From the NCBI GenBank assembly GCA_026225395.1, contig JAMFSR010000021.1, positions 248,001 through 312,000 on the forward strand: a stretch of 64,000 nt of DNA, in the 5' to 3' direction. This document shows positions 9,096-58,468 of the stretch, one piece after another (position 1 is the first letter of the stretch; each line of letters begins with the position of its first letter). The notes under the pieces were generated by a model. That model was not told where the DNA came from. It ran no database searches and worked only from the letters and a program-made list of their open reading frames with translations. The position numbers and the translations under genes are program-made. This DNA comes from Granulicella sapmiensis. Its GTDB lineage: Bacteria; Acidobacteriota; Terriglobia; Terriglobales; Acidobacteriaceae.

Positions 9096-9170
<75 letters not shown>

Positions 9171-36533: not shown

Positions 36534-36609
36534 TGGCGTCCCCGACAGGATTCGAACCTATGTTTCTACCTTGAGAAGGCAGCGTCCTGGGCCACTGGAC
36601 GACGGGGAC
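36534..36609 (-). tRNA. tRNA-Glu (anticodon CTC)
   Basis: Cloverleaf on the minus strand: acceptor GTCCCCG/CGGGGAC, anticodon stem CTGCC/GGTAG with loop TTCTCAA (anticodon CTC), T loop GGTTCGAATCC, encoded CCA. Stands alone between the carbamoylase and the RmlC-like gene; no sign of an integrated element beside it. Confidence 0.95.
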
Positions 36610-43035: not shown

Positions 43036-45462
43036 TCAACTCAAGAACGACTCGGTTCCCCGCTTTGCCTTGATCATGACCGTGCGGGTTCCGAGCGAAG
43101 AGCGTGTGGCATGCACCGTGATCGTTCCGGTGCTGTTGGGAACCGCTTTGATCCAGACGGCACCCACACCACCGCTGTCTGTGAGCGAGAAGGATGAATC
43201 GCCGACTAAAACTCCCGGGCCGGCGATATCGAACTTAACGTCGCCACCGGCGAGGAGACGATACATGCCGAATTTGTCGACGACCTTGAAGATGAGGCGA
43301 GTGGCGTCGGAGCCGTCAGCGACGATCTCTGCGTCGTCGGCCGTCAATACGAACTTGTCTTGCCTGCTATCGGCAGAGAACGATTGAGAGACGGCGAGCT
43401 TATCGGCTACGTAGCCGTCAATGCGGAGCTCCGGCTTGGCCGTGCCGTCCAGATCGAGGTCGACGAAGAAAGGCGGATACTTCGTGTTCGGATAATTCGT
43501 CTTATCAGGATGAGCCGTTGCGTGAGGCTTGCCGTCAACAAAAACTTCAAGTCGATCGCAGTTGGAAAAGATGGCGGAGTTCTTTCCCGGTCCGCGTGGG
43601 GACTTCGCGCCGAAGTCCCAGTAAAAGTTCGGGGCGATGACGGGGCGTATGTTGGGGCTCACCTGCGCAAGATAGAACGACGCGCCAAGCTTTGGAATCC
43701 GGAAGACATCGGAAACACCTGGGTTCTTGATGCCTTCATGCGAGTTCTGAGGGCTTGGGTACTCGAACGCGCACCAGGCGACGACACCGCAGAAACGTGG
43801 GTATGCCGCGGCCCTGTCGTGGGCCTGCGCGTGGAAGATGGCCTGATCGCATTGCAGCATCAGATCGCCATTGCGGTAGTAAGGATTATGGAAGCCTTTG
43901 TCGCCATAGCTAAACTGGCCGACGGTTTCCGCCAGCATGTAGGGCACGCCTGGCAAAGGCGGATAAACGCCAAGGGTTCCATCCTCCGCAGTGTGATAGT
44001 CGTCCATGGCGAAGACGTCGGAGTTCCATTCCGTTTGCCAGTTGCGAAAGTTTGTCATGGAGCCGGATGTGGGACGCGACCCATCGAGCTGTTTTGCGAT
44101 AACGCCGGTGCGGGCATACAGGTCCAGATCGTTTCGCGATTCGTTGACGCGCACGCCCCAGATAATGATCGACGCGTGATTGCGGTCGCGCAGAACCATG
44201 TCCCTCACGTTGTCATGGACGATGTCCTGAAAAGTCTTATCCGCACCGAGGTAGCCCCAGCCGGGAGGCTCCTGCCAAACCATCAGGCCGAGTTCATCGC
44301 AGGCATCGAGGAAAGCTTCGTTCTGCGGATAGTGCGAGCATCGCACCATGTTGCAGTTCAGATCGTGGCGAACGATCTCGGCATCGCGCCGCATGACGCG
44401 CGGCGGCATCGCCATGCCGACATAGGGATAGACCTCGTGGCGATTCAGGCCGAACAGCGTAAGCCTGCGACCATTGAGGAAGAAGCCGTCGGCCGTGAAG
44501 CTTGCTTCGCGGAACCCGATGCGGGTTTTGTAGTCGTGCAGTGGTTTCTCGTCCATCAGCAGCGTGGCGACAACCGTGTAGAGATGAGGGTTGTCCACAT
44601 CCCAGAGCTTGACGTTGCCGAGGTTCGAGAGCGTCAAGGAGACGTCCATCTTTCCCACGCTGGTAACGGTCAGTTTTTTGCTGGTAGTTGAGACGAGATG
44701 TGAGCCATCCATGAGGTCAACCTTGACCTCAACCGAACTGGACGCAGCAGCGGCATCGATCGTGCAGAGGACGTCTACGTGGCGCGTGGGCATGAGTACA
44801 TCGACGGGCTTCGCGAAGACATCGCTTACGAAGACCTGCGGCATTGCACAGAGCGACACGGAACGGAAGATCCCGCCCGGGGTGTAGTAGTCGACTGAAC
44901 CGGTTCCCTTGGGATTGCCGTCTGGTGGGACGTTCAAGAAGTTGGAGTCGAGTGTTACGTCGAGGATGTTATCGCCGGGTTTCTGTATCGAGGTTAGTTC
45001 GTAGGTGAATGGCAGATAGCCGCCGACGTGCCGCGTTAGAGCGTGGCCGTTAAACGTTGGAGTGGTGTTGACCATCGCCCCATCGAACTTGAGGAAGATG
45101 CGGCGACCGGCGAGCTCCTTCGGGATCGTGAGATGGCGGCGATACATCCAAACACTTTCCCAGTCGGCGGGATTCCATTTGTGCCAGGAAAGCTTTGCGA
45201 CGCAATGAGGCAGCGTAATGCGTGAGAAGGCTGCATCCGGGGCCTCGTTGATTGTGGCATTCGCGCCGAGCTTTCCTCCGAAGAGCCAGTTCTGATCGAG
45301 CGAGTAACGCAAGGTGGATGGGCCGTTTGGAGCCGAGGCCAACGCTTGCCGATCGCTCAAGCCCCATACCGCCCCAGAGGCGATGCCCGCTGTGGCAAGC
45401 GTGCCTGCCTTGAGAAATTTCCTGCGCGAGACTTTTTCGCGGTGGCGACTTTCAACCTTCAT
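43036..45462 (-). CDS. Tat-exported glycoside hydrolase family 2 protein
   Basis: 808 residues. Twin-arginine signal SRRKFLKAGTLATAGIASGAV. GH2 order: jelly-roll sugar-binding domain (WNPADWESVWMYRRHLTIP), Ig-like domain, TIM barrel with RHEVYPYVG, NMVRCSHYPQNEAFLDACDELGLMVWQEPPGWG, acid/base Glu in IIWGVRVNES and nucleophile Glu in YMLAETVGQFS, then DUF4982-type and C-terminal Ig-like domains. A periplasmic beta-galactosidase, beta-glucuronidase or related activity is expected; the substrate is unknown. It follows the SlcC-like gene by 53 bases and may supply the sugar for the downstream pathway. Confidence 0.88.
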   Translation of the reverse strand: MKVESRHREKVSRRKFLKAGTLATAGIASGAVWGLSDRQALASAPNGPSTLRYSLDQNWLFGGKLGANATINEAPDAAFSRITLPHCVAKLSWHKWNPADWESVWMYRRHLTIPKELAGRRIFLKFDGAMVNTTPTFNGHALTRHVGGYLPFTYELTSIQKPGDNILDVTLDSNFLNVPPDGNPKGTGSVDYYTPGGIFRSVSLCAMPQVFVSDVFAKPVDVLMPTRHVDVLCTIDAAAASSSVEVKVDLMDGSHLVSTTSKKLTVTSVGKMDVSLTLSNLGNVKLWDVDNPHLYTVVATLLMDEKPLHDYKTRIGFREASFTADGFFLNGRRLTLFGLNRHEVYPYVGMAMPPRVMRRDAEIVRHDLNCNMVRCSHYPQNEAFLDACDELGLMVWQEPPGWGYLGADKTFQDIVHDNVRDMVLRDRNHASIIIWGVRVNESRNDLDLYARTGVIAKQLDGSRPTSGSMTNFRNWQTEWNSDVFAMDDYHTAEDGTLGVYPPLPGVPYMLAETVGQFSYGDKGFHNPYYRNGDLMLQCDQAIFHAQAHDRAAAYPRFCGVVAWCAFEYPSPQNSHEGIKNPGVSDVFRIPKLGASFYLAQVSPNIRPVIAPNFYWDFGAKSPRGPGKNSAIFSNCDRLEVFVDGKPHATAHPDKTNYPNTKYPPFFVDLDLDGTAKPELRIDGYVADKLAVSQSFSADSRQDKFVLTADDAEIVADGSDATRLIFKVVDKFGMYRLLAGGDVKFDIAGPGVLVGDSSFSLTDSGGVGAVWIKAVPNSTGTITVHATRSSLGTRTVMIKAKRGTESFLS

Positions 45463-45515
45463 AGGCTCGGCATCTCTTCTTTATCCTGGATGTAATCGAT
45501 CTCAGTCGGCGCGTC

Positions 45516-46469
45516 TCAAATCCTATTGACTGCATTCTGTGCAGGTTGTCCATTGAGAACGCGCGCTACATCTTCACAGATCGTATTGGTCACGCGGGTC
45601 TGGGCTTCTTTTGTAAATGCGGCGACGTGCGGCGTGAGGATGAGATTGGGAAGGCTTTCCAACTCACCGGCTTGCGGCGGTTCTTTTGCGCGAACATCAA
45701 GCGCCGCACCGGCGATGGTCCTGGACTTCAGCGCCTGGATCAAATCGGACTCGTTGACCACTTCTCCGCGCGACGTGTTGATGAACGTGGCTGTCGGCTT
45801 CATCTTTCCAAATCGTTCTGCGTTGAAGATGCCATTCGTTGCGGGCGTGGCGGGCAGATGGCAGGAGATGACGTCTGCATGGGCCAGAAGGAAGTCGAGA
45901 TCGACGAGCTGAGCGTTCAGGTCGGCAAGCAGGATGTTGTCGGGACTGAGGTAAGGGTCATACGCAAGAATCTTCATGCCGAAAGCCTGGGCGCGGCGTG
46001 CGGCAAGGAAGCCGATCTTGCCGGCGCCGACGATGCCGAAGGTCTTTCCATACATCTCAGTGCCGAAGAAACCTTGCCGGTTCCAATTGCCTTGCCTGGT
46101 ATCGGCGCTCGCTGCGGGAATCAACCGCGCGAGAGAAAGCATGAGGCCGATGGCGAGTTCCGCAACGCTGATCGCATTCTGGTCGGGCGTGGAGGTGATC
46201 ACAACTCGGGCTTTTGTGGCGGCGACGACATCGACGTTGTCCAACCCTACGCCCGCGCGGCCTACAACGACAAGCTTCTTCGCGGCGGCGAATACATCTG
46301 CCGTCAACTGGGTTTGATTGCGCACGATGAGCGCGCGAACGTTTGCAACGAGCTGCTTTAACTCTTCAGGGTCTTTCCACAGGTCAGGAAGAAACTGGAC
46401 CTCAAAGCGGGAAGCCAATGCATCGACTGCAGCGCCACGAATATTTTCTGAGATAAGAATGTCCGGCAT
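45516..46469 (-). CDS. D-2-hydroxyacid dehydrogenase, probable (S)-sulfolactate dehydrogenase SlcC
   Basis: 317 residues. PGDH-type: GRAGVGLDNVDVVAAT, NAD-binding FGIVGAGKIGFLAARRAQAFGM, catalytic Arg in FINTSRGEVVN, Glu in ALDVRAKEPP and His in LILTPHVAAFT. No C-terminal ACT domain, so not a biosynthetic SerA. Adjacent ComC- and SuyAB-like genes point to SlcC, which oxidises (S)-3-sulfolactate to 3-sulfopyruvate with NAD. Assignment rests on context; a general hydroxyacid dehydrogenase is possible. ATG 46469 (AGGGAA upstream) overlaps the ComC-like stop region. Confidence 0.72.
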   Translation of the reverse strand: MPDILISENIRGAAVDALASRFEVQFLPDLWKDPEELKQLVANVRALIVRNQTQLTADVFAAAKKLVVVGRAGVGLDNVDVVAATKARVVITSTPDQNAISVAELAIGLMLSLARLIPAASADTRQGNWNRQGFFGTEMYGKTFGIVGAGKIGFLAARRAQAFGMKILAYDPYLSPDNILLADLNAQLVDLDFLLAHADVISCHLPATPATNGIFNAERFGKMKPTATFINTSRGEVVNESDLIQALKSRTIAGAALDVRAKEPPQAGELESLPNLILTPHVAAFTKEAQTRVTNTICEDVARVLNGQPAQNAVNRI

Positions 46470-46471
46470 GT

Positions 46472-47530
46472 CTAGTTCCCTACCTCTGCCCAATCAAACG
46501 GTACGTTCAAGCGAGTACATAAATCTTTGAGTTCTGCCGCGGTAACATCGGGAATCACGATACCGGCGGCTTCGTTCTCCGCGGCCTTACGGGACGACCG
46601 CTCGCCCGGGATAAGGATTTCGTCCACGCCAGGGCGACGTTTGCTGGACTTAATGCTGTCGATGGTTTCGTCCATGCGGCGCTTGAAGTCTGCGACGTCC
46701 AGGAAAGCCGCGATGTTCAAAAGACAGAAGAAGTGGCCGACGTCCTGCTTGCGGTCCATGTTCTTGTACATGGAACCGATCTCGGGACCGATGGCCGCGC
46801 CGGAGAGCACGCTGCTGAGGACTTCGATCATCAGCGCAAGCGCGTAGCCCTTGTGACCGGCCATGGTGAGGACCGTGCCGAGCAGAGCTTGCGAGGCATC
46901 GGTGGTGGGTTCGCCGTTGGGATCGAGCGCCCAGCCTTCAGGGATGGACTGGCCTTTCTTCTGCGCGACGATGATGTTGCCTCGCGCGATGATGGAGGTC
47001 GCCATGTCGATCTTCACGCTGTAGCCCTTACCCGTGGGGAAAGACGCGGCGATGGGGTTGGTGCCGAAGAAGGGCTGGAAACCACCGGCGGGAGACATGG
47101 CTGGCTCGCAGTTGGTCATGGCGAGGAGGATCATGTCCTGCTCCGCGGCGCGATTGCAGTAGTAGGAGAGTGCGCCGAAGTGCTGCGAGTTGCGGATGGT
47201 AGCAGCGGCGATACCGTTCTGTTTGGCGAGCGGCGTGAGCATGTCGAGCGCTTTCATCGCCTGGACTTGCCCGAGACCGTTACCAGCATCGAGCGCGAGG
47301 ACGCTGCCGCCGTCACGATCTACGCCGAGCGTTGCCTTGGGATCGATGAGACCTTTTTCGATGCGTTGGAGATAGATGTTCAAACGCGAGACGCCGTGCG
47401 TGGAAACGCCTTGCAGATCGGCGTCTACCAGCACACGCGCGAATACTTCCGCGTCGTCTGCCGAGACGCCGTCTGCGATGGCGAGTCTGCTCACGAGACT
47501 GCGCAGTTCCTGTGACTTGAACCGAGCCAA
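46472..47530 (-). CDS. Malate/L-lactate dehydrogenase family protein, probable (R)-sulfolactate dehydrogenase ComC
   Basis: 352 residues of the Ldh_2 family: DADLQGVSTHGVSRL, the catalytic His in RNSQHFGALSYY, TNCEPAMSPAGG, FGTNPIAASFPT, KGYALALMIEVLSSVLSGAAIG. Known relatives include ComC, ureidoglycolate and malate dehydrogenases. Beside SuyAB and SlcC the ComC role (sulfopyruvate to (R)-sulfolactate) is most likely, giving epimerisation of sulfolactate. TTG start with GGAG upstream, one base after the SuyB-like stop. Confidence 0.75.
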   Translation of the reverse strand: MARFKSQELRSLVSRLAIADGVSADDAEVFARVLVDADLQGVSTHGVSRLNIYLQRIEKGLIDPKATLGVDRDGGSVLALDAGNGLGQVQAMKALDMLTPLAKQNGIAAATIRNSQHFGALSYYCNRAAEQDMILLAMTNCEPAMSPAGGFQPFFGTNPIAASFPTGKGYSVKIDMATSIIARGNIIVAQKKGQSIPEGWALDPNGEPTTDASQALLGTVLTMAGHKGYALALMIEVLSSVLSGAAIGPEIGSMYKNMDRKQDVGHFFCLLNIAAFLDVADFKRRMDETIDSIKSSKRRPGVDEILIPGERSSRKAAENEAAGIVIPDVTAAELKDLCTRLNVPFDWAEVGN

Positions 47531-47531
47531 G

Positions 47532-48695
47532 TTATGCGCTCCGATACAGCTTGGTCATCGCGAATTCACGATGACCAAGCGCTTCTGCCGCGGTGTGGCG
47601 GCCGTTGGCGGTGCGAACGATCATGTCGAGCAATGCGTCGCCTGCTTCGTCGATGGTCATCTCACCCTGCAGGATTTTCGAGACATCGACGTCGATGTGT
47701 TCGGACATGGTGGCCATCGTCTTCGGATTGCCGGTGAGCTTGATGACAGGCTCAATCGGATGGCCGATGACGTTGCCCTGACCGGTCGGGAAGAGATGAA
47801 TCACCGCGCCGGACGCGGCCCAGAGCGTGACGGCTTCAGCCGCAGCACTGGAGGTATCCATAAACCACAGACCAGACTTAGTGGGTGCGACGGCGGGCGG
47901 AAGGCAGCCGATGAACTTAGTCTTCTTGCCGAGTTTCTCGACGTTGCCAAGCGCTTTCTCTTCGATGGTGGTGAGGCCGCCGGCGATGTTGCCCTTGGTC
48001 GGTTGCGACTCCGAGAGGTCGTTGGTCTTTTGGTCGAAGACAAGCTTGGTGTAGTCCTCGAACATGGCGAAGAACTCCTTGCGGACTTCTTCATTCGCGG
48101 CTTTGGCTGCAACGATGTGCTCGGCGCCCGTGAGTTCGCTCGTCTCGCCAAAGGAAGCCGTACCACCGTCTGCGCAGTGCTTGTCGATGACGTTGCCGAC
48201 AGTCGGGCAGCTGGAAAGGCCGGTGGTGGTGTCGGACTCGCCGCACTTCACGCTGATGTAGAGCTCACGCAGATCGCACTCGGTCCGCTGCAGCTCGGAA
48301 GCCCACTGCACGTACTCCTTCGCCTTGTAGGAGGCATCGGCGATGGTGCGAATGTCGCCCTTGCCTTCGATGGAGAAACCGAAGACAGGTTTGCCGGTCT
48401 TGGCGATGCCGTCGACGATCTTCTTCGTCCATCCAGCTTCGATGCCGATGACGATGACTGCAGCAACGTTCGCATTCGCACCTGTTCCGATGATGGTACG
48501 GAAGTGGAGTTCAAGGTCTTCGCCGAACTGCAGGCGGCCGTACGCGTGAGGGATTGCGAGCGTTCCCTTGATGTTGTTCGCCACTGCTTCGCAGGCAGCG
48601 TTCGAGATGTCGTCCACTGGAAGAATGATGACGTGATTGCGAACGCCGACGGCTCCATTTTCGCGCCTATAACCAAGAATTTTCCGCGTAGCCAT
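47532..48695 (-). CDS. UxaA-family lyase large subunit, probable sulfolactate sulfo-lyase SuyB
   Basis: 387 residues. N-terminal [169 protein letters not shown] belong to the altronate/galactarate dehydratase large-subunit family, which includes SuyB. SuyAB splits (R)-sulfolactate to pyruvate and sulfite. The neighbouring SlcC/ComC pair favours SuyB; altronate or a related sugar acid is the alternative. Starts right after the SuyA-like stop. Confidence 0.75.
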
Positions 48696-48977
48696 CTATG
48701 CCCACCTTTTCGTCTTGAGGTTCTGTGTATGTACGTGGTGCCCGGTCTTTACATCGGCTGAGATGCGGCCGATGACGCAGGCGTACTTGATAACGTCGTC
48801 ACCGACTTTGAAGTCCTTCAAGGCAATCTTGTGGCCGAGAGGAATGGCTTCCTCCGAGTGCGCTTTGAGCGGTTTGTTGTCGCTCAGGTTTCTGCCGGTG
48901 AGGTCCATGCCGGCCTCGATATCGACCACCGCAACACCGACGTTATCCTCGGTGTCATGAGTTAGAAAGTGAATCAT
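48696..48977 (-). CDS. SAF-domain small subunit, probable sulfolactate sulfo-lyase SuyA
   Basis: 93 residues, a single SAF domain: DNVGVAVVDIEAGMDL, IPLGHKIALKDFKVGDDVIKYACVIGRISADVKTGHHVHTQNLKTKRW. Altronate dehydratases of E. coli carry this domain fused; split small and large subunits are usual for SuyA/SuyB. ATG behind GGAGAG. Tightly coupled to the large subunit (zero-base gap). Confidence 0.76.
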   Translation of the reverse strand: MIHFLTHDTEDNVGVAVVDIEAGMDLTGRNLSDNKPLKAHSEEAIPLGHKIALKDFKVGDDVIKYACVIGRISADVKTGHHVHTQNLKTKRWA

Positions 48978-49011
48978 CTATTGCTCTCCTTGCTTTTCCG
49001 TGGCTGAAGCT

Positions 49012-50454
49012 TCAGACTCCGCCGATTGAAACGTGTTTGGTTTCTAAAAATGCTTCCAGGCCTTCGCTGCCCAGTTCCCGTCCCCAGCCGCTTTGCTTTA
49101 CGCCACCGAATGGCGCCTGGCTGGTTGTCGGTGCGCCATCGTTGATGCCGAGCGTGCCGGCCTCAAGCTGCTCACTGAGGCGGAAGATGCGGCCCATATC
49201 GCGCGTCATGGCGTAGGCGCTCAGGCCGTAAGGTGTGTTGTTGGCGCGGCGGATGACTTCTTCTTCCGTATCGAAGCTGCTGATCGGCGCAATGGGCGCG
49301 AACGTCTCTTCGCACATGCAGAGCGAGTCCTCATGCACGTCCTCAATCACGGTGGGCATAAGGAAGTAGCCCTCGGAATCTTCCATACGTGCGCCGCCAG
49401 CAACTACGCGCCCTCCGCGCTTCTTCGCGTCTTCAATCTGTGCAAGCGCTGCGTCGAGTCCACTTTGGTTCACCACCGGACCGATATCCATTCCGGGCTC
49501 AAGGCCGGGGCCGATCTTCAGCTTGCCGACGGCGGCGACGAAGCGGTCGACGAACTCCTTGGAGATGCCCTTCTGCACATAAATACGATTGGCTGCGATG
49601 CAGGATTGGCCCGTATTGCGGAACTTGGCGATGATCGTTTCCTGGACGGCCTTTTCCATATCGCAATCGTCAAAGACCAGCACCGGTGCGAGTCCGCCAA
49701 GCTCAAGGCAGAGTGGTTTGATGGTGTCCGCAGCGGCGCGAATCAGCGACTGCCCCACGCGCGTTGAGCCGGTAAAGCTGATCTTGCGGCAGATCGGATT
49801 CGACATCAGCTCCGTCGAAAACATGACTGGGTCACAAAGGATCATCTGGAAGACGCCTGCGGGAATACCCGCCGCTTCCATGCACTCTGCTAGTAGCACC
49901 GAAGACAGCGGCGTTTGCGAAGCAGGCTTGAGAATCACGGGGCAGCCGGCGGCCAGAGCCGGTGCAACCTTGCGTACCGAAAGCACCAGCGGGAAGTTCC
50001 ACGGAGCGATCGCACCAACGACACCGATGGGCGTCTTGACGACTATGTGACGCTTGCTGGTGACATTCTGCGGAATCGTTCTGCCATAAACGCGGCGGCC
50101 TTCTTCAGCAAACCAGCGGAGATGATCTTCGGACATGCCTACTTCGCCTTCGCTCTGCGCGATGGGTTTGCCGTTTTCGAGCGTGATGATCCGGGCGATT
50201 TCAGCTTTGCGCCTTACAAGTTCGTCTGCCACCTTGTGCAACAAAATCCCGCGATCTCTCGCCGGCATGTTGCGCCACGCGGGAAGCGCTTCCTCGGCTG
50301 CGACAAGAGCGGCTTTCAAGTGCGCGAGATCGGCCTTTGAGGCAGTAGCGAACGGCCGGGCAGTCGCAGGATCGACTACTTTGACCTCATCATCTGTCTT
50401 GATCCATTTGCCGCCCAGGTAAGAACGGAACGAATTCGTTGTGCTGTTTTCCAA
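49012..50454 (-). CDS. NAD(P)-dependent aldehyde dehydrogenase (SSADH-like; possible sulfolactaldehyde dehydrogenase)
   Basis: 480 residues. Catalytic Cys in FRNTGQSCIAANR, Glu in LELGGLAPVLVF, cofactor loop PWNFPLVLSVRKVAPALAAGC and FTGSTRVGQ, C-terminal EETFAPIAPI. Belongs to the succinate-semialdehyde dehydrogenase type, the same type as known sulfolactaldehyde dehydrogenases. In this operon it would make sulfolactate for SlcC/ComC/SuyAB. Lactaldehyde, glycolaldehyde or succinate semialdehyde cannot be excluded. TTG start preceded by GAGGAAGCC. Confidence 0.8.
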   Translation of the reverse strand: MENSTTNSFRSYLGGKWIKTDDEVKVVDPATARPFATASKADLAHLKAALVAAEEALPAWRNMPARDRGILLHKVADELVRRKAEIARIITLENGKPIAQSEGEVGMSEDHLRWFAEEGRRVYGRTIPQNVTSKRHIVVKTPIGVVGAIAPWNFPLVLSVRKVAPALAAGCPVILKPASQTPLSSVLLAECMEAAGIPAGVFQMILCDPVMFSTELMSNPICRKISFTGSTRVGQSLIRAAADTIKPLCLELGGLAPVLVFDDCDMEKAVQETIIAKFRNTGQSCIAANRIYVQKGISKEFVDRFVAAVGKLKIGPGLEPGMDIGPVVNQSGLDAALAQIEDAKKRGGRVVAGGARMEDSEGYFLMPTVIEDVHEDSLCMCEETFAPIAPISSFDTEEEVIRRANNTPYGLSAYAMTRDMGRIFRLSEQLEAGTLGINDGAPTTSQAPFGGVKQSGWGRELGSEGLEAFLETKHVSIGGV

Positions 50455-50505
50455 GGCTTCCTCAGACTGCTCACGAGCTTTGTGCGTAAACCGTACGACC
50501 TGCTT

Positions 50506-51156
50506 CTACCCAACCCACTTGGGTACGAAGGTTCCTTGCTTGACCTGGCTTTCGATCATTTCGCGCGCAGCTTTTACATGCTCGCGTGCCTGGCGATCGG
50601 CTTCGTCTCCGAAGTTGTGCTCGATGGCTTCGAGAATACGCAGATGCTCGGCATGGATCACGGCCGGCTCTCGGAAAGCACGTACCGTCATCCCAAGCAC
50701 ACGAGTCGTCTGCGACAAGCGAATCAAGGTACTGTTCCGGGAGAGCTCCGTGATGTGGAGATGGAACTGACGATCGAGCGCGGCGCTGTTGCCCTCGGTG
50801 TCCTGGGCCAGCCTGAAAATTTCATGCGCCATATTGCGGAGTTCCACAATGTCGGCGCGGCTTGCGTGGCCGCAGGCGAGACGAGCGGCGAGGCCTTCCA
50901 TCACCTCGCGTACCAGGTAGGCCTCGCAGATCTTCTCCGCATCGAGCGTGTCGACGAAGACGCCAAGATGATCGACGGACTCGACCAGCCCGAGCCAATG
51001 CAGCTCGAGAAGCGACTCACGCACGGTACCCTGCGCAACCCCGAGTTCGCGCGCCAGGCTTTGCTGGCTCAGCCGCTGTCCCGGCTTGCTTTCGCCGGTC
51101 AAGATGCGGCGTTGAATCTCGTCTCGAACTTCATGCCTTGCAACGCGAACTTTCAT
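50506..51156 (-). CDS. GntR-family regulator (FadR/FCD type)
   Basis: 216 residues. N-terminal winged helix: VRDEIQRRILTGESKPGQRLSQQSLARELGVAQGTVRESLLELHWLGLVESV. C-terminal FCD domain with likely metal ligands in DRQFHLHITELSRN and HAEHLRILEAI. ATG 51156 has GGAGG eight bases upstream. It sits inside the operon and has an AT-rich palindromic motif in front of it that recurs before the divergent transporter, so it probably represses the whole cluster and responds to a pathway intermediate. Confidence 0.9.
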   Translation of the reverse strand: MKVRVARHEVRDEIQRRILTGESKPGQRLSQQSLARELGVAQGTVRESLLELHWLGLVESVDHLGVFVDTLDAEKICEAYLVREVMEGLAARLACGHASRADIVELRNMAHEIFRLAQDTEGNSAALDRQFHLHITELSRNSTLIRLSQTTRVLGMTVRAFREPAVIHAEHLRILEAIEHNFGDEADRQAREHVKAAREMIESQVKQGTFVPKWVG

Positions 51157-51211
51157 GAATTGCCTCCTGCAGACATCGTTGGGCGGGTTCTGCAAGCAGT
51201 TTCTATGGCCG

Positions 51212-51227
51212 AATCATTCAATCGATT
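51212..51227. promoter_or_regulatory. Possible GntR operator, site A
   Basis: AATCATTCAATCGATT, 56 bases before the GntR gene. It resembles the complement of the site at 55156-55177 (AATCATTC, two extra bases, AATCGATT). Confidence 0.5.
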
Positions 51228-51252
51228 ATAACTTATCATCTTAGCGTCTTGC

Positions 51253-52632
51253 TCAATCGTGCCACTCCAGCGACAGCAGCCTCGCCGTCCGTTTGAAGGC
51301 TTTCACATGACTTCCATAGTGCAGCGTGACGTGATGAGGCATTGCGGCATGGATCATGTTGTCGAACCGCTCATACACACCCCCGCCTTCCACCTCAACC
51401 AGCACACTGTTACCCGACACCTTTCTGGTCGGCTCAATGGCCTTTCCCTCGAACGCGGTCAGATGATATCTGTTGTCGCACTTCCATAGCCGGGAAACCG
51501 TCACGGTTTCTCCCACCTTGAGCGGGCCGTTGACCACAAACGGTGTCTTCCCGTTGAAGTGAGCACCCAGCGTTGGCTCGCAAACGCCGCCGACCTCGTA
51601 ACACATATCCAGCGGAGCCATGCCGGGATGCCAGAAGAAGATGGTCTTATCGTCATGCTCCAGCCAGTCCGTCAGAAAGCCGGGGCCGAAACCAAGGTAG
51701 TTGCTGATGATGCTGCCGATAGCGCCATCGACGTCGCCTTCAATTGAAAGAGCCTGTCCTTCGGCAAGCAGCCGGGACACAGCGAAGTATGGCCATTGGC
51801 CAAGCTTGTTCGGTAAATCGGGCCAGCACTGCAGGGCCAGGCCATTGAGGCCATTCTCCTTCATGATGTCGATCATGGATAGATAAAATCGCGAGTTGAC
51901 CGCAAGCATCTTCTCCGAGGGTTGTACTGTTCCCTCCTCGCCGAAGTGCAGCCCAAGCTTCTCGACCTTCGCCATGTCCTCTTTCACCGCGAGCTCAGGA
52001 ACATCGCCGACGCGATCGATGAACTGCGGCAGGCTAAGCGAGTGCATTTGCATGCCGAAGGTCTGTGAAATGAGGAACGGATCGGCCGCAAGATCGATGA
52101 ATCCCGGAGCATGAATACCGACCACGCCGATCTTCGAACGCCGCAGACGATGTACCGTGCTGACGAGGGCGATGGCCTTGCGCAGGTCGTCATGCAGCGT
52201 CTCTGCGCTGCCATAAACGAACTCGAAGGGCCGATGATCCTGACGCAGGATCGAAGCCCATAGATGCTGGCCCACCAGCGAGCAGGAGCTGACATCGCCG
52301 TCGCCCGGGCGCTCCGGCGTTGCCCAAAGCACCAGCGGACCAGACCAGCGCTGGCTGATCGTGAACGCAAACTGGCCATCGCTGATGGACGGCTGAATGA
52401 CAACAATCGCTTCACACTTTGCCGAATGTATCTGGTCGAGCGATGCGTGAATCATTGCATCGTCGAGAATGGGGCTGTCGGCTCCGATGCAATGGAAGCC
52501 AAGGCCGGTAAGCGTGGCCAGACTGCGCTCGCGCGTGATCTTGTTCCACTCCTGGTCAAAGCCCGGACGCTTGCGCCCGAAGATCAACACGCCAAGATTC
52601 TTTGTCGCACCGCTCTCATAACTGGAGGGCAT
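51253..52632 (-). CDS. L-fucose/L-arabinose isomerase-like protein
   Basis: 459 residues from ATG 52632 (GGGAG upstream, two bases after the kinase-like stop). Overall plan follows FucI/AraA-type isomerases: N-terminal alpha/beta domains (LGVLIFGRKRPGFDQEWN, AIVVIQPSISDGQF, LVLWATPERPG), a middle with KIGVVGIHAPGFIDLAADP, LNGLALQCWPDLP and EGDVDGAIGSIISNYLG, FFWHPGMAP, and a C-terminal beta domain ending HVTLHYGSHVKAFKRTARLL. The probable metal ligands are the Glu/Asp/His of these blocks. Substrate unknown; isomerisation of the cluster's sugar (aldose to ketose) is inferred. Confidence 0.72.
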   Translation of the reverse strand: MPSSYESGATKNLGVLIFGRKRPGFDQEWNKITRERSLATLTGLGFHCIGADSPILDDAMIHASLDQIHSAKCEAIVVIQPSISDGQFAFTISQRWSGPLVLWATPERPGDGDVSSCSLVGQHLWASILRQDHRPFEFVYGSAETLHDDLRKAIALVSTVHRLRRSKIGVVGIHAPGFIDLAADPFLISQTFGMQMHSLSLPQFIDRVGDVPELAVKEDMAKVEKLGLHFGEEGTVQPSEKMLAVNSRFYLSMIDIMKENGLNGLALQCWPDLPNKLGQWPYFAVSRLLAEGQALSIEGDVDGAIGSIISNYLGFGPGFLTDWLEHDDKTIFFWHPGMAPLDMCYEVGGVCEPTLGAHFNGKTPFVVNGPLKVGETVTVSRLWKCDNRYHLTAFEGKAIEPTRKVSGNSVLVEVEGGGVYERFDNMIHAAMPHHVTLHYGSHVKAFKRTARLLSLEWHD

Positions 52633-52634
52633 GG

Positions 52635-53834
52635 TTATACAACTCCCATCGGTTGCAGGCCGCCGGTAAGCACCGGAGGATAGTGAAAGAGTTCTCCCAC
52701 TTGCGGGCGAACGTAGTCCAGAAAGGCATCGGTCACCGCGAGCGGGCCATCTGAAAGCCACTCGGCGGGAATCGCGCGGTGCGAACCCGCCGCAGCGTGC
52801 AGTGGGATCAGTTCAAAGAGCGTGGAAGTATCACCGATCGGACGCAGCGAAACCATCTTGTCCGTCTCCCCGGCCACGAGCGCGCGAACACCTTCGCGGC
52901 CAACGAGCTCCGCGTCGGCCTGATCCTGCGCGGATACCAACGCCATGCAGGCGCGCCCAATCAGCCCGGGCTTTTCGCTGCGGCAGCGAATGCCAAGATT
53001 TTCCGCCACAACGCCGGACAAATACTGTGCCACACCGCCAATCAAAGGGCGATTGAGCGCATCGTTCTGGGAGGCAATGCGCTGCTCAAAGACGGGCGTA
53101 CCGTCGGCGTAGCTGATGCCTTCGGAGACAACGACGACTGCCCATCCCTGGCGGCGCATCACCGTGTCGAGATCGGCAAGGAATGTCTCGCGAGAAAACG
53201 GAGTTTCCGGAACATACACCAGGTGCGGCGCATCGTTCGGGTCGATCTTAGCAAGCGAGGAGGATGCCGCCAGCCAGCCTACGTTCCTGCCGAGGGTTTC
53301 GAAGATCGTCACCGGTTGCGGCAGCGAGCGCATATCCATCCCAAGGTCACGCGTCGACTGCGCCACATAACGCGCGGCGCTGCCAAATCCCGGGCAGCGA
53401 TCCGTCGCCACAATGTCATTGTCGATCGTCTTTGGAACACCCATGATCTGAACGTCGAAGTTCATGCCGCGGCAGAACTCGCGGACAACTTCGGCGCCAC
53501 GCATGCTCCCATTGCCGCCCATAAAGATCAAATGGCGAATATCCATCTTTCTCATAAAACCGACGCTGCGCTCCAGATCCTCGTCCGTCGGCTTGAAGCG
53601 TGACGATCCAAGAGCAGCTCCTGGGCTTTTGTGCAAAGCCAGTATTTCCGCGGGGGTCATATCGCTAAGGCCGATAAAGCTTCCCTCTGCCATGCCCTTC
53701 ATGCCCGATTGCGCGCCATAGATCTTTCCAATTCCCGGCTGCTTGATCCCTTCGGCAATGATGCTCGCGAGGCTTGCATTGAAGACCGGTGTCGGCCCTC
53801 CGCCTTGTACGATCATCAGGTTTCCAGCGTTCAT
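52635..53834 (-). CDS. Phosphofructokinase family protein, PPi-type signature
   Basis: 399 residues of the PfkA family: LMIVQGGGPTPVFNASLASII, GAQSGMKGM, LIFMGGNGSMRGAEVV, VPKTIDNDIVATDRCPGFGSAARY, EGISYADG, FELIPL. PKTIDND rather than PGTIDND is the hallmark of PPi-dependent enzymes, and GGNGS replaces the usual GGDxS. It would phosphorylate a keto-sugar made by the isomerase encoded next to it. ATG 53834 has AGG close upstream; TTG 53837 is an alternative. Donor and substrate are unknown. Confidence 0.8.
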   Translation of the reverse strand: MNAGNLMIVQGGGPTPVFNASLASIIAEGIKQPGIGKIYGAQSGMKGMAEGSFIGLSDMTPAEILALHKSPGAALGSSRFKPTDEDLERSVGFMRKMDIRHLIFMGGNGSMRGAEVVREFCRGMNFDVQIMGVPKTIDNDIVATDRCPGFGSAARYVAQSTRDLGMDMRSLPQPVTIFETLGRNVGWLAASSSLAKIDPNDAPHLVYVPETPFSRETFLADLDTVMRRQGWAVVVVSEGISYADGTPVFEQRIASQNDALNRPLIGGVAQYLSGVVAENLGIRCRSEKPGLIGRACMALVSAQDQADAELVGREGVRALVAGETDKMVSLRPIGDTSTLFELIPLHAAAGSHRAIPAEWLSDGPLAVTDAFLDYVRPQVGELFHYPPVLTGGLQPMGVV

Positions 53835-53858
53835 CAATACCTCATCCTCAGAAAGATC

Positions 53859-54974
53859 TTAGCCAACCAACACACCCGCAGATGCATACTCATTGCCATC
53901 TATCATAGTGATCACAGTCGGAAGGTCAGGCGTCAGCGTGATGATCTCAGTTTTCCCATCCTGCACAATCACCGTATCCTCTGCCTTGGTGCCTTGCAGG
54001 CTCGGATTCCAGGAAAATGCCTGGTGATTCAACACCTTCTCGTGCCCACCCGGACGTGCAATCCACTCGCGCTCGGCGTAGCCGGTCGCACCGCCTTGAT
54101 GGTGCATAGTTTCTTCACCCGCATACCCGGTCGCGGCATAGGCTTCGCGCGCTATAGTAAATAGCTCGTCTGCGCTCTTCCCTTCGCGTGTCGCATGGAG
54201 GATCTTCCCATTGACCTCGGCCACCGCCGCGAACTTCTCGGCCAACTCCCCTGGCATGGGGCCGAAGTGTACAAACCGCGTCATAGAAATCGCAAGGCCC
54301 CACCGTCGCGAACAAAAGTTCACCATACCGTAACGCTCCAGCACACCGGCGCGCGGAACAGCGTGGCGATACTTTCTCACACGCTCATCCACCGCCGTAA
54401 GGTAGACGCTCGGCATAATGTCCCGCAACATCAACTGCTCGGCAAGCTGCGCCTGCATCATGGTTTCACTCATGCCAGGCCGAAGACCGAGCAGGACTTG
54501 CGTGACCGCCTCTGCAGTGTGAGCTCCGAGCCAACGATACCGCTCCATCTCATCCGGTGTCAGCTCGTATCGCAAAGGCTGTAAGGCGATCACCGGCAAG
54601 GAATCCAATGGAGCGTCCGTCGCCACTTTTCCGCTGCCTACAACTTTCGCGATCGAAGCCATAACGTCGTTGGCATACCAGGGCTGGATCAGCGGCTCAT
54701 AGCCGAGGAGTGGAAACTCTTCCGCGGCTAAACGTGGCGCCTCATTGTTGGTGGAGAGATAGAACGCTTTGCCGCCGCGTGTGAACAACAGACTCGCTAC
54801 GCCCGTCTCGCGCAAAACACCCACCCGTACATCGACTAATCCCGCGGTAGCCCACGCAATGTTTTCGTGGCGCGAAATAACAAGCGCATCCAGCCCCTGT
54901 TCTTCCATGAACTGGTACAGGCGCTTCCGTTTTTCAGCAAGCTCCGCTGTGCGGTCCTGTGCTTCAATGTCCAC
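53859..54974 (-). CDS. M24 (pita-bread) family protein lacking metal ligands, creatinase-like
   Basis: 371 residues, GTG start. N-terminal creatinase/prolidase domain (RLYQFMEEQGLDALVISRHENIAWATAG), C-terminal M24 domain. The five metal ligands of aminopeptidases are largely absent: VNF at about 218-220 where VDF is usual, Ser at about 230 in ISMTR, Asn at 323 in WNPS where EPG is usual; His 291/292 in MHHQGG and Glu 332 in KAEDT remain. This argues against a metallopeptidase and for a creatinase-like, metal-free hydrolase or a binding protein. First gene of the leftward operon. Confidence 0.75.
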   Translation of the reverse strand: MDIEAQDRTAELAEKRKRLYQFMEEQGLDALVISRHENIAWATAGLVDVRVGVLRETGVASLLFTRGGKAFYLSTNNEAPRLAAEEFPLLGYEPLIQPWYANDVMASIAKVVGSGKVATDAPLDSLPVIALQPLRYELTPDEMERYRWLGAHTAEAVTQVLLGLRPGMSETMMQAQLAEQLMLRDIMPSVYLTAVDERVRKYRHAVPRAGVLERYGMVNFCSRRWGLAISMTRFVHFGPMPGELAEKFAAVAEVNGKILHATREGKSADELFTIAREAYAATGYAGEETMHHQGGATGYAEREWIARPGGHEKVLNHQAFSWNPSLQGTKAEDTVIVQDGKTEIITLTPDLPTVITMIDGNEYASAGVLVG

Positions 54975-55155
54975 GTCGACCGCCTTCTGCCTTCAACAGC
55001 CCACACCGATCCAATGCTTCCACTCTGATCACCCCCCGCATATCCGACATCGACTGTAATACCGTAAACCTTCCCGCGCCCAGCTTCACCATCCGCGATC
55101 TTCCCTCCGAACCGTCTCTAAACCTCCCTCAATATAGGCAGTTCACTATCTAGAG

Positions 55156-55177
55156 TCAATCGATTGCGAATGATTGA
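55156..55177. promoter_or_regulatory. Possible GntR operator, site B
   Basis: TCAATC, ten bases, GATTGA: six-base perfect arms with further partial symmetry, 63 bases before the MFS transporter and 182 bases before the divergent M24 gene. Similar to site A before the GntR gene. Confidence 0.5.
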
Positions 55178-55239
55178 TAACGCGTGTTCTGCGTCGACCG
55201 TGCGTCCCTTCCGTTTGCAGGTGTTAAGCTGACAGGAAC

Positions 55240-57063
55240 ATGACGACATCTCCTTTGGTGCCTCAAACCCCTTTCGACAGAAAGCGACGCTCGTATACCC
55301 GATTTGTTCTTTTAGTGGCCGGGCTCGGCGGTCTGCTTTATGGGGTAGACATCGGCATCATCGGCGGCGCGCTTCCGTATCTTGAAGCAACGTCGAAGTT
55401 GAACGCCGGCCAGCTTTCCGTCATTGTTGCAGCCGTTTTGCTCGGCAGCGTATTTTCTACCCTGTTCGCCGGCTTGCTGGCCGATTGGTTGGGCAGAAAA
55501 CCGCTGATGATCCTTAGCGGCCTGGCATTTGTGGTCAGCATTCCAGTGATCGCACTTTCGCACGGCTATGGCTCTCTTTTTCTTGGCCGCCTTCTGCAGG
55601 GCGTGAGCGGAGGTATCATCGGCGTTGTGGTTCCGCTGTACCTCGCCGAATGTCTGCCGGCAGCGAATCGCGGCAAAGGGACGGGCGTCTTTCAGTGGCT
55701 GCTGACCTTCGGCATTTTTCTGGCCGCGGTCATCGCCTTCTACTACAGCATCCGGGTCGAACACGTAGCGAGCCTTGCGGGGCCTAATGCGGTTCTTGAT
55801 TTCAAAGATCAGGCATGGAGGAGAATTTTCTGGACCTCGCTGCCACCCGGAGTACTCTTCGTTCTCGGAAGCATCTTCATCACAGAATCTCCGCGATGGC
55901 TTTTCCAGCGTGGCAAAGAGGCACAAGCCTATGCGGCGCTGCTCCGTTCGCGAACACCGGAGCAATCGGATGTGGAACTCGCGGAGATGCGCCAGCGATC
56001 CGTTACCGACGTCGCCACTCGTGCTTCCTCAGGTGGTGCGCGGGAGACGCTCTTGCAGCGCAAGTACATTCTTCCTTTCGCCCTTGCCTGCGTCATTCTC
56101 TTCTGCAATACAGCCACCGGAGTGAACTCCATCATCGGCTACAACACCAGCATCCTGCTGCAGAGCGGCCTGTCTGATCTGAGCGCACATATCGGTTATG
56201 TGCTGTTCACGCTGGTCAACTTTGCCATGACCATGGGTGGAGTTGCACTCGTCGATCGCAAAGGCCGGAAGTTCCTGTTCACGATCGGGACCAGCGGCAT
56301 CGTGATTGCTCTGTTGGTGATTGGCGGTTTGTTCTACAGCAATGAAAAGTCCGGCGTCGACCGTCACCAGACACTGCAATCGATGGTCCAATCCGACCAA
56401 ACGCTCAGCCTGCCTTTCAACGCTGAAGAAGCGCAAAAGCTGTTGACCAGCGAAGGCTATGCCGGCGGTAAAGTGCAAAGCGATAAGGCATCGTTGGCCG
56501 TCATTTATTCGTACGGGGATTTCACGGCCGCCACCAGCTATCGCCGCAGTGACGACCCAGGCGCGGCGCCGCTCGTTATCACCCGGGAGAGCTGCGTTCC
56601 GGCAAACCGCGTTGAGGCGTTCTTCAAGAATCCATTCGCCGACTGGCGAGCTGCACAGACCGCCCCGTTGAAGATCAACCAGGCCTTGATTGGCCAGGTG
56701 CCGAGCGCACGGCATGGTTGGATCGTCGCCATCGCGCTTTATGTCTTCATGACATTCTTTGCGATAGGCCCGGGAGTTTGCGTGTGGCTGGCGCTCTCCG
56801 AGCTCATGCCGACCCGCATTCGTTCCAACGGCATGAGCATCGCACTTGTCATCAACCAGATCGTCTCCACCACTCTGGCCGGCGTCTTTCTTCCTGTCGT
56901 CAGCAAATACGGTTACTCGACGATCTTCTTTATGTTCGCCGCCTTCTCCATCTTCTACTTAGCCACCGTAGTATTTTTTCTTCCCGAAACGAAGGGCAAG
57001 ACGCTCGAGGAGATCGAGCAATTCTTTGATAAAAGTCGTCGCGTCGCAAGCCCAGGCCAGTGA
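55240..57063 (+). CDS. MFS sugar porter with a large insert
   Basis: 607 residues, twelve helices. Sugar porter signatures: GLLYGVDIGIIGGALPYL, LADWLGRKPLMI, GRLLQGVSGGIIGVVVPLYLAECLPAANRGKGTG, ESPRWLFQRG, TGVNSIIGYNTSIL, VDRKGRK, LPETKGKTLEEIEQFF. Between helices 9 and 10 (about residues 375-490) there is an extra soluble segment, so the protein is longer than the usual 450-500. ACAGGAAC precedes the ATG. Divergent from the operon and likely its uptake system. Confidence 0.9.
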   Translation: MTTSPLVPQTPFDRKRRSYTRFVLLVAGLGGLLYGVDIGIIGGALPYLEATSKLNAGQLSVIVAAVLLGSVFSTLFAGLLADWLGRKPLMILSGLAFVVSIPVIALSHGYGSLFLGRLLQGVSGGIIGVVVPLYLAECLPAANRGKGTGVFQWLLTFGIFLAAVIAFYYSIRVEHVASLAGPNAVLDFKDQAWRRIFWTSLPPGVLFVLGSIFITESPRWLFQRGKEAQAYAALLRSRTPEQSDVELAEMRQRSVTDVATRASSGGARETLLQRKYILPFALACVILFCNTATGVNSIIGYNTSILLQSGLSDLSAHIGYVLFTLVNFAMTMGGVALVDRKGRKFLFTIGTSGIVIALLVIGGLFYSNEKSGVDRHQTLQSMVQSDQTLSLPFNAEEAQKLLTSEGYAGGKVQSDKASLAVIYSYGDFTAATSYRRSDDPGAAPLVITRESCVPANRVEAFFKNPFADWRAAQTAPLKINQALIGQVPSARHGWIVAIALYVFMTFFAIGPGVCVWLALSELMPTRIRSNGMSIALVINQIVSTTLAGVFLPVVSKYGYSTIFFMFAAFSIFYLATVVFFLPETKGKTLEEIEQFFDKSRRVASPGQ

Positions 57064-57159: not shown

Positions 57160-58434
57160 ATGCCCTTTCGCGAGATCCTCAAACAAACGCTCGCCGCACT
57201 CTGGGAGACCAAACTCCGCAGCTTTCTCACCATGTTCGGCATCATCTGGGGCATCACCTCTGTCATTCTCCTGGTCGGCCTCGGCATCGGGTTCGGCGTC
57301 GACCAAAAGGAGCGCATGAAGAACCTCGGCACCGACATCGCCATCTGCTTCGGCGGCAAAACCGCCATGCCTTCCGGCGGCTACGCAGCGGGCCGCAACG
57401 TCACCCTCAAGATCGACGACGCCATCGCTATCCAGCAGTTCGCTCCACTCGTCAAATACGTCTCACCTGAGCTCCTCAAGACCGTCAGCGAAGTCAGCCA
57501 GTGGAACGCTGCCAGCCGCGCCGTCCGCGGAGTCTGGCCCGACTACCAGGCCTTCCGCTCGCTCCACGTTGAAACCGGCCGCATCATGACCGAAGCAGAC
57601 GAAGACAACGGCGCCCGCGTCGTCATCCTCGGCAACGACTCCAACCGCCAGCTTTTTCCCGGCAAACCCTCCGTCGGCGAAACCATCACCATCGCCAGCT
57701 ATCCGTACACCGTAATCGGCGTGATCGCGGCCAAGAAACAGAACGGCAGCTACGGCTCCGGCCCCGACAACTCCCAGCTCTTCGTTCCACTCTCCGCCAT
57801 GGAGCGCGACTTCCCTCCTGACGATAAAGGCGCCCTCCCCACCGACCCGCGTGACCTTCCCGGCGACGTCAACGACATCGTCGTCCAACCCGTCAGTCCG
57901 GCGCTTCACGAAGCCGCTCTGCGCCAGGTCCGCCAGATCCTCGCCGACCGCCATCACTTCGACCCCATCGACCTCGACGCGCTCTGGGTCTGGGACACGC
58001 TTGACGGAGCCAAGTTCACCGACCGCATCTTCCACGTCATGACCCTCTTCTTCGGCGCGGTCGCCATCCTCACCCTCGCGCTCGGCGGCATCGGCGTCAT
58101 GAACATCATGCTGGTCGCCGTCTCCGAGCGCACCCGCGAAATCGGCGTCCGCAAGGCCCTCGGCGCAACCGCTGTCGACATCCGCCGCCAGTTCCTCACC
58201 GAGTCCGCCATCATTACCCTTGTCAGCGGCAGCATCGGTCTGGCTTGCGGCGTCGGCATCTGCCTTCTTTTGCGCCTCCTCCCGCTTCCAGACTTCGTCC
58301 CCCACCCCGTCATCTCTACCACTGCCATCGTGGCCTCGCTGCTCACCCTCGCCGCTATCACCGTCTTCGCGGGCACCTACCCAGCGCTGCGCGCCGCCAA
58401 CCTCACACCCATCGAATGCCTCCGCACCGAATAG
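57160..58434 (+). CDS. MacB/FtsX-family ABC transporter permease 1
   Basis: 424 residues. N-terminal helix (LRSFLTMFGIIWGITSVILLVGLG), MacB-type periplasmic core (about 45-260), and three C-terminal helices of the FtsX domain with LALGGIGVMNIMLVAVSERTREIGVRKALGATAVDIRRQFLTESAII. Such permeases use a separate or fused ATPase to move substrates or transmit force in the periplasm. No ATPase is in this window. 34 bases before a paralogue. Confidence 0.9.
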   Translation: MPFREILKQTLAALWETKLRSFLTMFGIIWGITSVILLVGLGIGFGVDQKERMKNLGTDIAICFGGKTAMPSGGYAAGRNVTLKIDDAIAIQQFAPLVKYVSPELLKTVSEVSQWNAASRAVRGVWPDYQAFRSLHVETGRIMTEADEDNGARVVILGNDSNRQLFPGKPSVGETITIASYPYTVIGVIAAKKQNGSYGSGPDNSQLFVPLSAMERDFPPDDKGALPTDPRDLPGDVNDIVVQPVSPALHEAALRQVRQILADRHHFDPIDLDALWVWDTLDGAKFTDRIFHVMTLFFGAVAILTLALGGIGVMNIMLVAVSERTREIGVRKALGATAVDIRRQFLTESAIITLVSGSIGLACGVGICLLLRLLPLPDFVPHPVISTTAIVASLLTLAAITVFAGTYPALRAANLTPIECLRTE

Positions 58435-58468
58435 CTTTCTGGGCCCTGAGCCCTGAACCCTGGACCCT

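Follow-up and report, generated by a model that had tools for sequence, protein, structure and literature searches.

Acidobacteriota are common soil bacteria, and the complete breakdown of sulfosugars is usually described as divided among different bacteria. About ten billion tons of sulfoquinovose are produced each year (PMC9594981, PMC12890257; here and below, statements on papers cited by PMC number refer to excerpts of them). We analyzed a window, the whole stretch of 64,000 nucleotides from Granulicella sapmiensis (Acidobacteriota; assembly GCA_026225395.1, contig JAMFSR010000021.1, forward-strand positions 248,001 to 312,000). It contains a gene cluster that, judged from its sequence, probably encodes catabolism of a 6-deoxy-6-sulfohexose (most likely sulfoquinovose, possibly sulfofucose) fully to central metabolites and sulfite, via a hybrid sulfoglycolytic Embden-Meyerhof-Parnas (sulfo-EMP) pathway joined to the sulfolactate sulfo-lyase SuyAB.

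Several described systems share parts of this scheme. The sulfo-EMP2 pathway of Bacillus urumqiensis and Megamonas uses the isomerase SqvD, the PF00365 kinase SqiK and the class II aldolase SqiA (PMC9594981), and is placed in Firmicutes (PMC9594981, PMC12890257). The window system resembles it in having an AraA/FucI-family isomerase, a PF00365 kinase, a predicted aldol cleavage to dihydroxyacetone phosphate and sulfolactaldehyde, and a putative sulfolactaldehyde dehydrogenase (as in aerobes). It differs in its class I LacD-family aldolase (PF01791, which is also the Pfam family of YihT) in place of the class II SqiA, in its divergent isomerase and in the addition of SlcC, ComC and SuyAB; no SqvB was identified. 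Hybrids of sulfo-EMP and sulfo-EMP2 enzymes occur (PMC9594981, PMC12890257), one of them in Vibrio (PMC13372026). Extended transaldolase-type (sulfo-TAL) clusters of Thermotogae and Chloroflexi also combine a SqvD-type pathway with SuyAB in one cluster (PMC9594981), whereas the window has a clustered phosphofructokinase (PFK), an aldolase encoded elsewhere, no clustered transaldolase and an acidobacterial host. The tandem sulfofucolytic-sulfolyase pathway of Paracoccus wurundjeri has been shown to degrade a 6-sulfohexose completely, yielding pyruvate and sulfite through SlcC, ComC and SuyAB; the union of sugar-splitting and C-S-cleaving halves in one bacterium is there called unusual (PMC12421959). 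Its upstream half is of Entner-Doudoroff type, unlike the isomerase-kinase-aldolase arrangement proposed here. Within the same phylum, the peatland metagenome-assembled genomes (MAGs) SbA4 and SbA5 carry suyAB, and SbA5 also slcC and comC, that is, genes for sulfolactate racemisation and cleavage (PMC6018796); in contrast to the window, no sugar genes are linked to them, they have sulfite reduction capability, and the word sulfoquinovose is absent from that text. In other papers that mention acidobacteria, sulfoquinovose appears as a predicted community function or a gene count (PMC10156627, PMC8709368, PMC13398701), in a remark about sulfite in the gut, or in the references alone.

In the literature surveyed, which did not extend to subscription papers and preprints, the relevant passages naming sulfoquinovose and acidobacteria do not tie the two together, and no link between Acidobacteria and sulfoglycolysis appears in titles or abstract openings. 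The novelty most likely lies in a hybrid sulfo-EMP pathway fused with a sulfolactate sulfo-lyase, in a phylum for which the literature covered holds no description. Both pathway halves belong to a single conserved operon, from which the aldolase is separated in the window genome. This suggests that soils hold a so far unnoticed sink for sulfosugars, one with direct return of sulfite.

Open reading frame and profile searches agree with the original prediction on the position and family of ten minus-strand genes (54974 down to 43036) and of a divergent sugar porter on the plus strand (55240-57063). The minus-strand genes form a tight operon. SuyA and SuyB abut, a single base separates SuyB from ComC, the PFK stop lies 2 bases before the probable isomerase start at 52632 (counted by hand along the frame), and the ComC stop lies 2 bases before the probable SlcC start at 46469. 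In the pathway that we propose, an AraA/FucI-type isomerase (51253..52632) would convert the sulfohexose to a sulfoketose, a PFK-family kinase (52635..53837) would phosphorylate this at C1, and a class I aldolase of the LacD family, with its gene at another site in the genome, would cleave the sulfoketose phosphate to dihydroxyacetone phosphate and sulfolactaldehyde. An aldehyde dehydrogenase (ALDH) of the succinate semialdehyde dehydrogenase (SSADH) type (49012..50454) would oxidise sulfolactaldehyde to (S)-sulfolactate. SlcC (45516..46469) and ComC (46472..47530) would carry this through sulfopyruvate to (R)-sulfolactate, from which SuyA (48696..48977) and SuyB (47532..48695) would release pyruvate and sulfite. 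Sequence and tree comparisons support the identity of SuyB, the conservation of the operon and the tie between an aldolase paralogue and the cluster. We infer the substrates, the order of the steps and the roles of the glycoside hydrolase, M24-like protein and transporter described below.

Co-occurrence was assessed in 298 genomes sampled from the order, representing 70 genera. The isomerase is present in 23 of these genomes and eight of the genera. Among 22 isomerase-bearing relatives, 18 have isomerase, ALDH, SuyA, SuyB, ComC and SlcC together on one locus, which argues that the arrangement is not due to chance. Two of the other four loci (L040, L046; labels of this kind are our own) reach contig ends, in L045 the suy block lies elsewhere on the contig (L107), and L053 is rearranged. 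SuyA adjoins SuyB in the 18 full-block relatives, and a relative of the GntR/FCD regulator (50506..51195; Pfam), which may control the cluster, is on the locus in 18 of the 22.

The original prediction had proposed a route without an aldolase, departing from the described pathways. It noted no aldolase, no GH31 sulfoquinovosidase and no sulfite exporter, which is accurate for the window; the genome at large encodes two LacD-family aldolases, three TauE-family proteins and five GH31 proteins. The aldolases are on contigs C6 and C42, neither in the window. The C6 gene adjoins a major facilitator superfamily (MFS) gene that is about 70% identical to a cluster-linked MFS gene. In a quick 37-row tree (Shimodaira-Hasegawa-like approximate likelihood ratio test, SH-aLRT, only; L027 and rows shorter than 280 aa removed), the C6 aldolase falls among the cluster copies (split 100) and the C42 aldolase among the housekeeping enzymes, the labels having been assigned beforehand from the location and score of each copy. 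A LacD-family aldolase lies near cluster genes in 12 of 29 loci (one genome counted twice), accompanied in seven of the 12 by an ACS-type MFS gene. At least two aldolase copies (E ≤ 1e-60) are present in 13/23 isomerase-positive genomes versus 8/275 negative ones, and in genus g2 an aldolase copy occurs in 7/7 isomerase-positive and 0/33 isomerase-negative genomes, the negatives being those among the genomes listed. We therefore reject the aldolase-free route, given a second LacD-family aldolase that groups with cluster copies and has cluster-linked counterparts in relatives. The aldolase that seemed to be missing is probably supplied from elsewhere in the genome. Because this class I paralogue is present, and is cluster-linked in many carriers, a hybrid of sulfo-EMP with SlcC, ComC and SuyAB is the simplest route. 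No class II (PF01116) aldolase for sulfofructose phosphate was found among the cluster genes; a genome-wide PF01116 search was not made. The prediction is in this sense partly supported: its core idea stands and the claim of an aldolase-free pathway does not.

Some aldolase observations weigh against this assignment. The C6 enzyme resembles tagatose-1,6-bisphosphate aldolases (E ~2e-85) and matches YihT weakly (E 2e-7), and it is encoded on a different contig from the cluster. In the tree, three aldolases that adjoin the cluster are placed on the housekeeping side, and genomes G270, G109 and G009 each encode a single aldolase, which has a housekeeping-like score and is outside the tree. In a comparison of YihT with 30 frames of the relatives' loci, the matches listed are 23-25% identical. 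Some alignment columns distinguish cluster aldolases from housekeeping ones, and none could be matched to a known sulfonate contact.

Cleavage could alternatively be of the sulfo-TAL type, with a transaldolase converting the sulfoketose to sulfolactaldehyde and fructose-6-phosphate, the PFK acting on fructose-6-phosphate and the LacD-type aldolase on fructose bisphosphate. Sulfo-TAL clusters extended by SuyAB occur in Thermotogae and Chloroflexi (PMC9594981), and in three acidobacterial loci (L025, L046 with a TalAB-type enzyme, and L051) the PFK and isomerase genes are directly preceded by a transaldolase gene, which suggests a transaldolase variant there. The window genome encodes one transaldolase, on contig C39, 56% identical to the L046 enzyme. 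A further transaldolase, of the fructose-6-phosphate aldolase (FSA)/TalC type, is found at the verrucomicrobial locus L029. Against these points, no transaldolase is among the window cluster genes, a TalAB-type gene is present in 3/29 loci, and it is the aldolase paralogue that tracks the cluster. We consider this route unlikely for the window.

The two halves might also be separate, the suy block degrading external sulfolactate or sulfolactaldehyde while isomerase, PFK and the GH2 glycosidase handle an ordinary sugar. SuyB (E ≤ 1e-100) is found in 29/298 genomes, six of them without an isomerase match, and the cluster-type PFK (E ≤ 1e-39, a threshold placed at a gap in the match list) in 32/298, nine of them isomerase-negative. 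However, both SuyB and this PFK are present in 23/23 isomerase carriers (versus 6/275 and 9/275 negative genomes), in most relatives the ALDH-suy block has PFK and isomerase as neighbors, and the top curated family of the isomerase is a sulfoquinovose isomerase, so that independent function of the halves is improbable. One of the isomerase-free genomes (G093, locus L099) carries the sulfolactate module by itself, as GntR-SuyA-SuyB-ComC-SlcC, without isomerase or PFK.

The sulfolactate part of the cluster is sound, and the UxaA/SAF pair is assigned to SuyAB, a predicted (R)-sulfolactate sulfo-lyase. SuyB (GD_AH, UxaA type) is 60-72% identical to five SuyB proteins from sulfonate loci and 26-40% identical to eight other members of the family, in a comparison set of annotated plasmid records. 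The higher values (68-72%) are with Paracoccus aestuarii, P. versutus, Rhodobacteraceae SC52 and Cupriavidus pinatubonensis; Rhodococcus koreensis is at 60%. The reference SuyB genes lie in sulfonate loci of differing content: SlcC/ComC-like genes with a putative sulfate exporter; histidinol-dehydrogenase-like, short-chain dehydrogenase/reductase and alcohol dehydrogenase genes (dihydroxypropanesulfonate type) with a putative sulfate exporter; annotated hpsN and hpsO; or an ALDH with SlcC/ComC-like genes. The eight non-Suy members are mostly near sugar-acid genes or are annotated as altronate or galactarate dehydratases. Whether the large subunit groups with such dehydratases was a check set beforehand. 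In a 41-row tree it lies instead with SuyB, inside a 33-row Suy clade with support of 100/100 (long outgroup branches were flagged; L025, L027, L028, rows shorter than 300 aa, reference duplicates and an unannotated E. coli record were left out). This placement rejects an altronate or galactarate dehydratase identity. SuyAB is a split enzyme here, with a separate SAF small subunit (Pfam) adjoining the large one, and split pairs occur outside Suy too. SuyA is 37-52% identical to five sulfonate-locus SuyA proteins; its identity is not decided by these values alone, because a non-Suy small subunit from Priestia also reaches 37%.

It is highly improbable that the pair is a sugar-acid dehydratase and that the cluster degrades fuconate, altronate or another acid without a sulfonate group: the Pfam families are common to altronate and galactarate dehydratases, galactarate dehydratase is the sole NCBIfam match (far under the cut-off) and a 40%-identical Variovorax pair also sits with hydroxyacid and Ldh dehydrogenases, yet the clade support and the identities to sulfonate-locus SuyB oppose it.

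ComC (Ldh_2 family) and SlcC (2-hydroxyacid dehydrogenase of the phosphoglycerate dehydrogenase, PGDH, family) are putative (R)- and (S)-sulfolactate dehydrogenases, assigned from family and gene order and, for ComC, also from its top NCBIfam match. That match, NF040650 (L-sulfolactate dehydrogenase), scores 294.9 bits and does not reach the cut-off of 500. ComC shares 37-39% identity with ComC-like proteins encoded at three suy loci, and SlcC is 43% and 40% identical to SlcC-like genes in suy loci of Rhodococcus and Paracoccus aestuarii. These low values (37-43% to the Paracoccus, SC52 and Rhodococcus counterparts) count against the assignments, as do an Azospirillum Ldh at 45% and a Streptomyces "serA" at 44%, both plasmid proteins without known suy-locus membership. 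SlcC is thus no closer to suy-locus SlcC-like genes than to "serA", and orthology of the two dehydrogenases is not established since these proteins are as close or closer. The ALDH matches TIGR01780 with 533 bits, below the cut-off of 646. Its position adjoining SuyA is conserved, and its putative substrate, sulfolactaldehyde, is suggested by this context.

The upstream isomerase and kinase, predicted originally to process a sulfosugar, do belong to families used on such sugars. We propose that the isomerase is a candidate sulfosugar aldose-ketose isomerase, a divergent relative of SqvD/SftI. Its top curated family is NF048012 (SftI sulfoquinovose isomerase), its modelled structure has the AraA/FucI fold, and fold comparison retrieves AraA and FucI. 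By sequence, its single match in the PDB is weak, an L-arabinose isomerase (E 0.099). Remoter relatives are encoded in MAGs of Verrucomicrobia (41%) and Planctomycetaceae (36%). At L029, a verrucomicrobial locus, the isomerase is accompanied by ComC, SlcC, the FSA/TalC-type transaldolase, ALDH, a sodium:solute symporter, a class II fructose-bisphosphate aldolase (FBA) and a protein that clusters with the TTE1925-type mutarotase. A PF00365 kinase adjoins the isomerase in the window and in 20/22 relatives, and the window kinase matches PRK14072 with 383 bits, above the cut-off; we regard it as a putative sulfoketose 1-kinase.

Other features of this pair tell against a sulfosugar function. The isomerase scores 166.9 bits against the NF048012 cut-off of 700, far below it, and is 24-26% identical to two higher-scoring plasmid isomerases. 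The window PFK groups (SH-aLRT 100) with PFKs of nine genomes in which isomerase and SuyB are both absent, in a quick tree (SH-aLRT only; rows shorter than 300 aa and duplicates removed; the Chlorohelix PFK is represented by two rows, one among the cluster rows). GH20, SIS, PfkB and amidohydrolase genes are among the neighbors of those PFKs, sampled at five of the nine loci (L090-L098). Four well-filled alignment columns split isomerase-negative from cluster PFKs, and at these the window PFK is on the negative side, so a cluster-specific kinase signature is not favoured. The window PFK is also the single PFK match in its genome and may therefore act on fructose-6-phosphate or tagatose-6-phosphate. 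As an observation in its own right, cluster-type PFKs in the nine genomes free of isomerase and SuyB may reflect kinase repurposing.

A more specific proposal is sulfofucolysis of the EMP type, considered by Stewart et al. 2025 and not found operating. Here the isomerase would yield sulfotagatose, on which the kinase (with its nearest kin near amino-sugar genes) and then a LacD aldolase of the tagatose-bisphosphate type would act. The route would be spread in soil acidobacteria, along with a creatinase-like enzyme that is free of metal and has a novel function. We rate this combination as doubtful, a minority option. Sulfofucose itself is a possible sugar because families of the beta-galactosidase type (GH2, GH42, GH59) lie near the cluster in 6/22 relatives. 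In the window, the glycosidase is a GH2 enzyme (43036..45462; Pfam GH2 domains) with an N-terminus that appears twin-arginine-like by eye, and it is predicted to be exported. It matches PDB entries 5ldr/5euv (E ~7e-99), and the closest structure is a beta-D-galactosidase; a role as a sulfoglycoside hydrolase is possible. It has relatives of at least 46% identity close to the cluster at L033, L044, L052 and L106 (genome G009). Other clusters have nearby GH42 (L041), GH59 (L040), GH39, GH92, GH38 and GH3-type genes, and this set makes a beta- or galacto-linked sugar source worth considering.

None of the five GH31 proteins in the window genome has the full set of E. coli YihQ residues Gln288, Arg301, Trp304 and Tyr508, which we take to be sulfonate-binding (the alignment is gappy around 288-304). 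We reject a YihQ-type GH31 sulfoquinovosidase in this genome on that basis, a point against the proposed pathway, with the limit that GH188 was not searched for. No GH31 gene was detected near the clusters among the Pfam-scanned neighbor proteins, a scan covering part of the neighbors. At six loci (L034, L038, L043, L045, L052 and L053), members of one protein family are encoded close to the isomerase. Its two scanned members (L034, L038) are DUF5054 proteins with export-like N-termini by eye, and are candidate glycosidases.

The first gene of the operon encodes an M24/creatinase-fold protein (53859..54974; Pfam). Relatives (E ≤ 1e-40) are in 60/298 genomes, comprising 10/23 carriers and 50/275 others. 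At E ≤ 1e-130, a cut picked after the list was seen, the others fall to 2/275 against 10/23 carriers, and so the close subclade is probably part of the system in some carriers. Aligned against six distinct carrier relatives (nine rows, including the window copy and two duplicates), the window protein shares with them conserved motifs such as SRHEN, HHQGG and KxEDT. Most canonical M24 metal ligands, at the positions that we assume for them, are seemingly lost. Matches in the PDB are distant prolidases and related M24 peptidases and nothing else. A function as the missing aldolase or as a peptidase is not favoured, given the apparent loss of most ligands and the distance of these matches. Together with the divergent isomerase clade and the recruited aldolase paralogue, this apparently metal-free protein is a candidate new enzyme.

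The divergent MFS sugar porter (55240..57063, plus strand; TIGR00879, 260 bits, above the cut-off) is a possible importer. A relative (29%) is present in L040, the sole case among 29 loci. Two neighboring permease-like frames (57160-59725) appear from their translations, by eye, to be of the MacB/FtsX type. With respect to the fate of sulfite, the window genome has three TauE-family matches and one PF00174 match, none on the contig of the cluster. No sulfite exporter was found in the window; dsr genes and a SuyZ-type exporter were not searched for in the genome.

Two plasmids encode further SftI-like isomerases. On that of Candidatus Chlorohelix allophototropha (NZ_CP128401.1, 3257-19106; L110), an isomerase scoring 343 bits is in a run with a PRK14072-type PFK, an SSADH-type ALDH, a nitrite/sulfite reductase, siroheme genes, an ABC transporter, a PGDH-type dehydrogenase and a threonine-synthase-like gene, possibly coupling sulfosugar use to sulfite reduction in this Chloroflexota bacterium. 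Zymomonas mobilis plasmid pZZM402 (NC_013785.1, 128-8445; L111) carries a class II FBA, an aldose epimerase, an isomerase scoring 288 bits, Gfo/Idh/MocA and MFS genes and a TonB receptor, with no evident kinase; this too is possibly a sulfosugar cluster. Also present in the window are two minus-strand tRNA genes, at 9099-9170 and 36537-36609.

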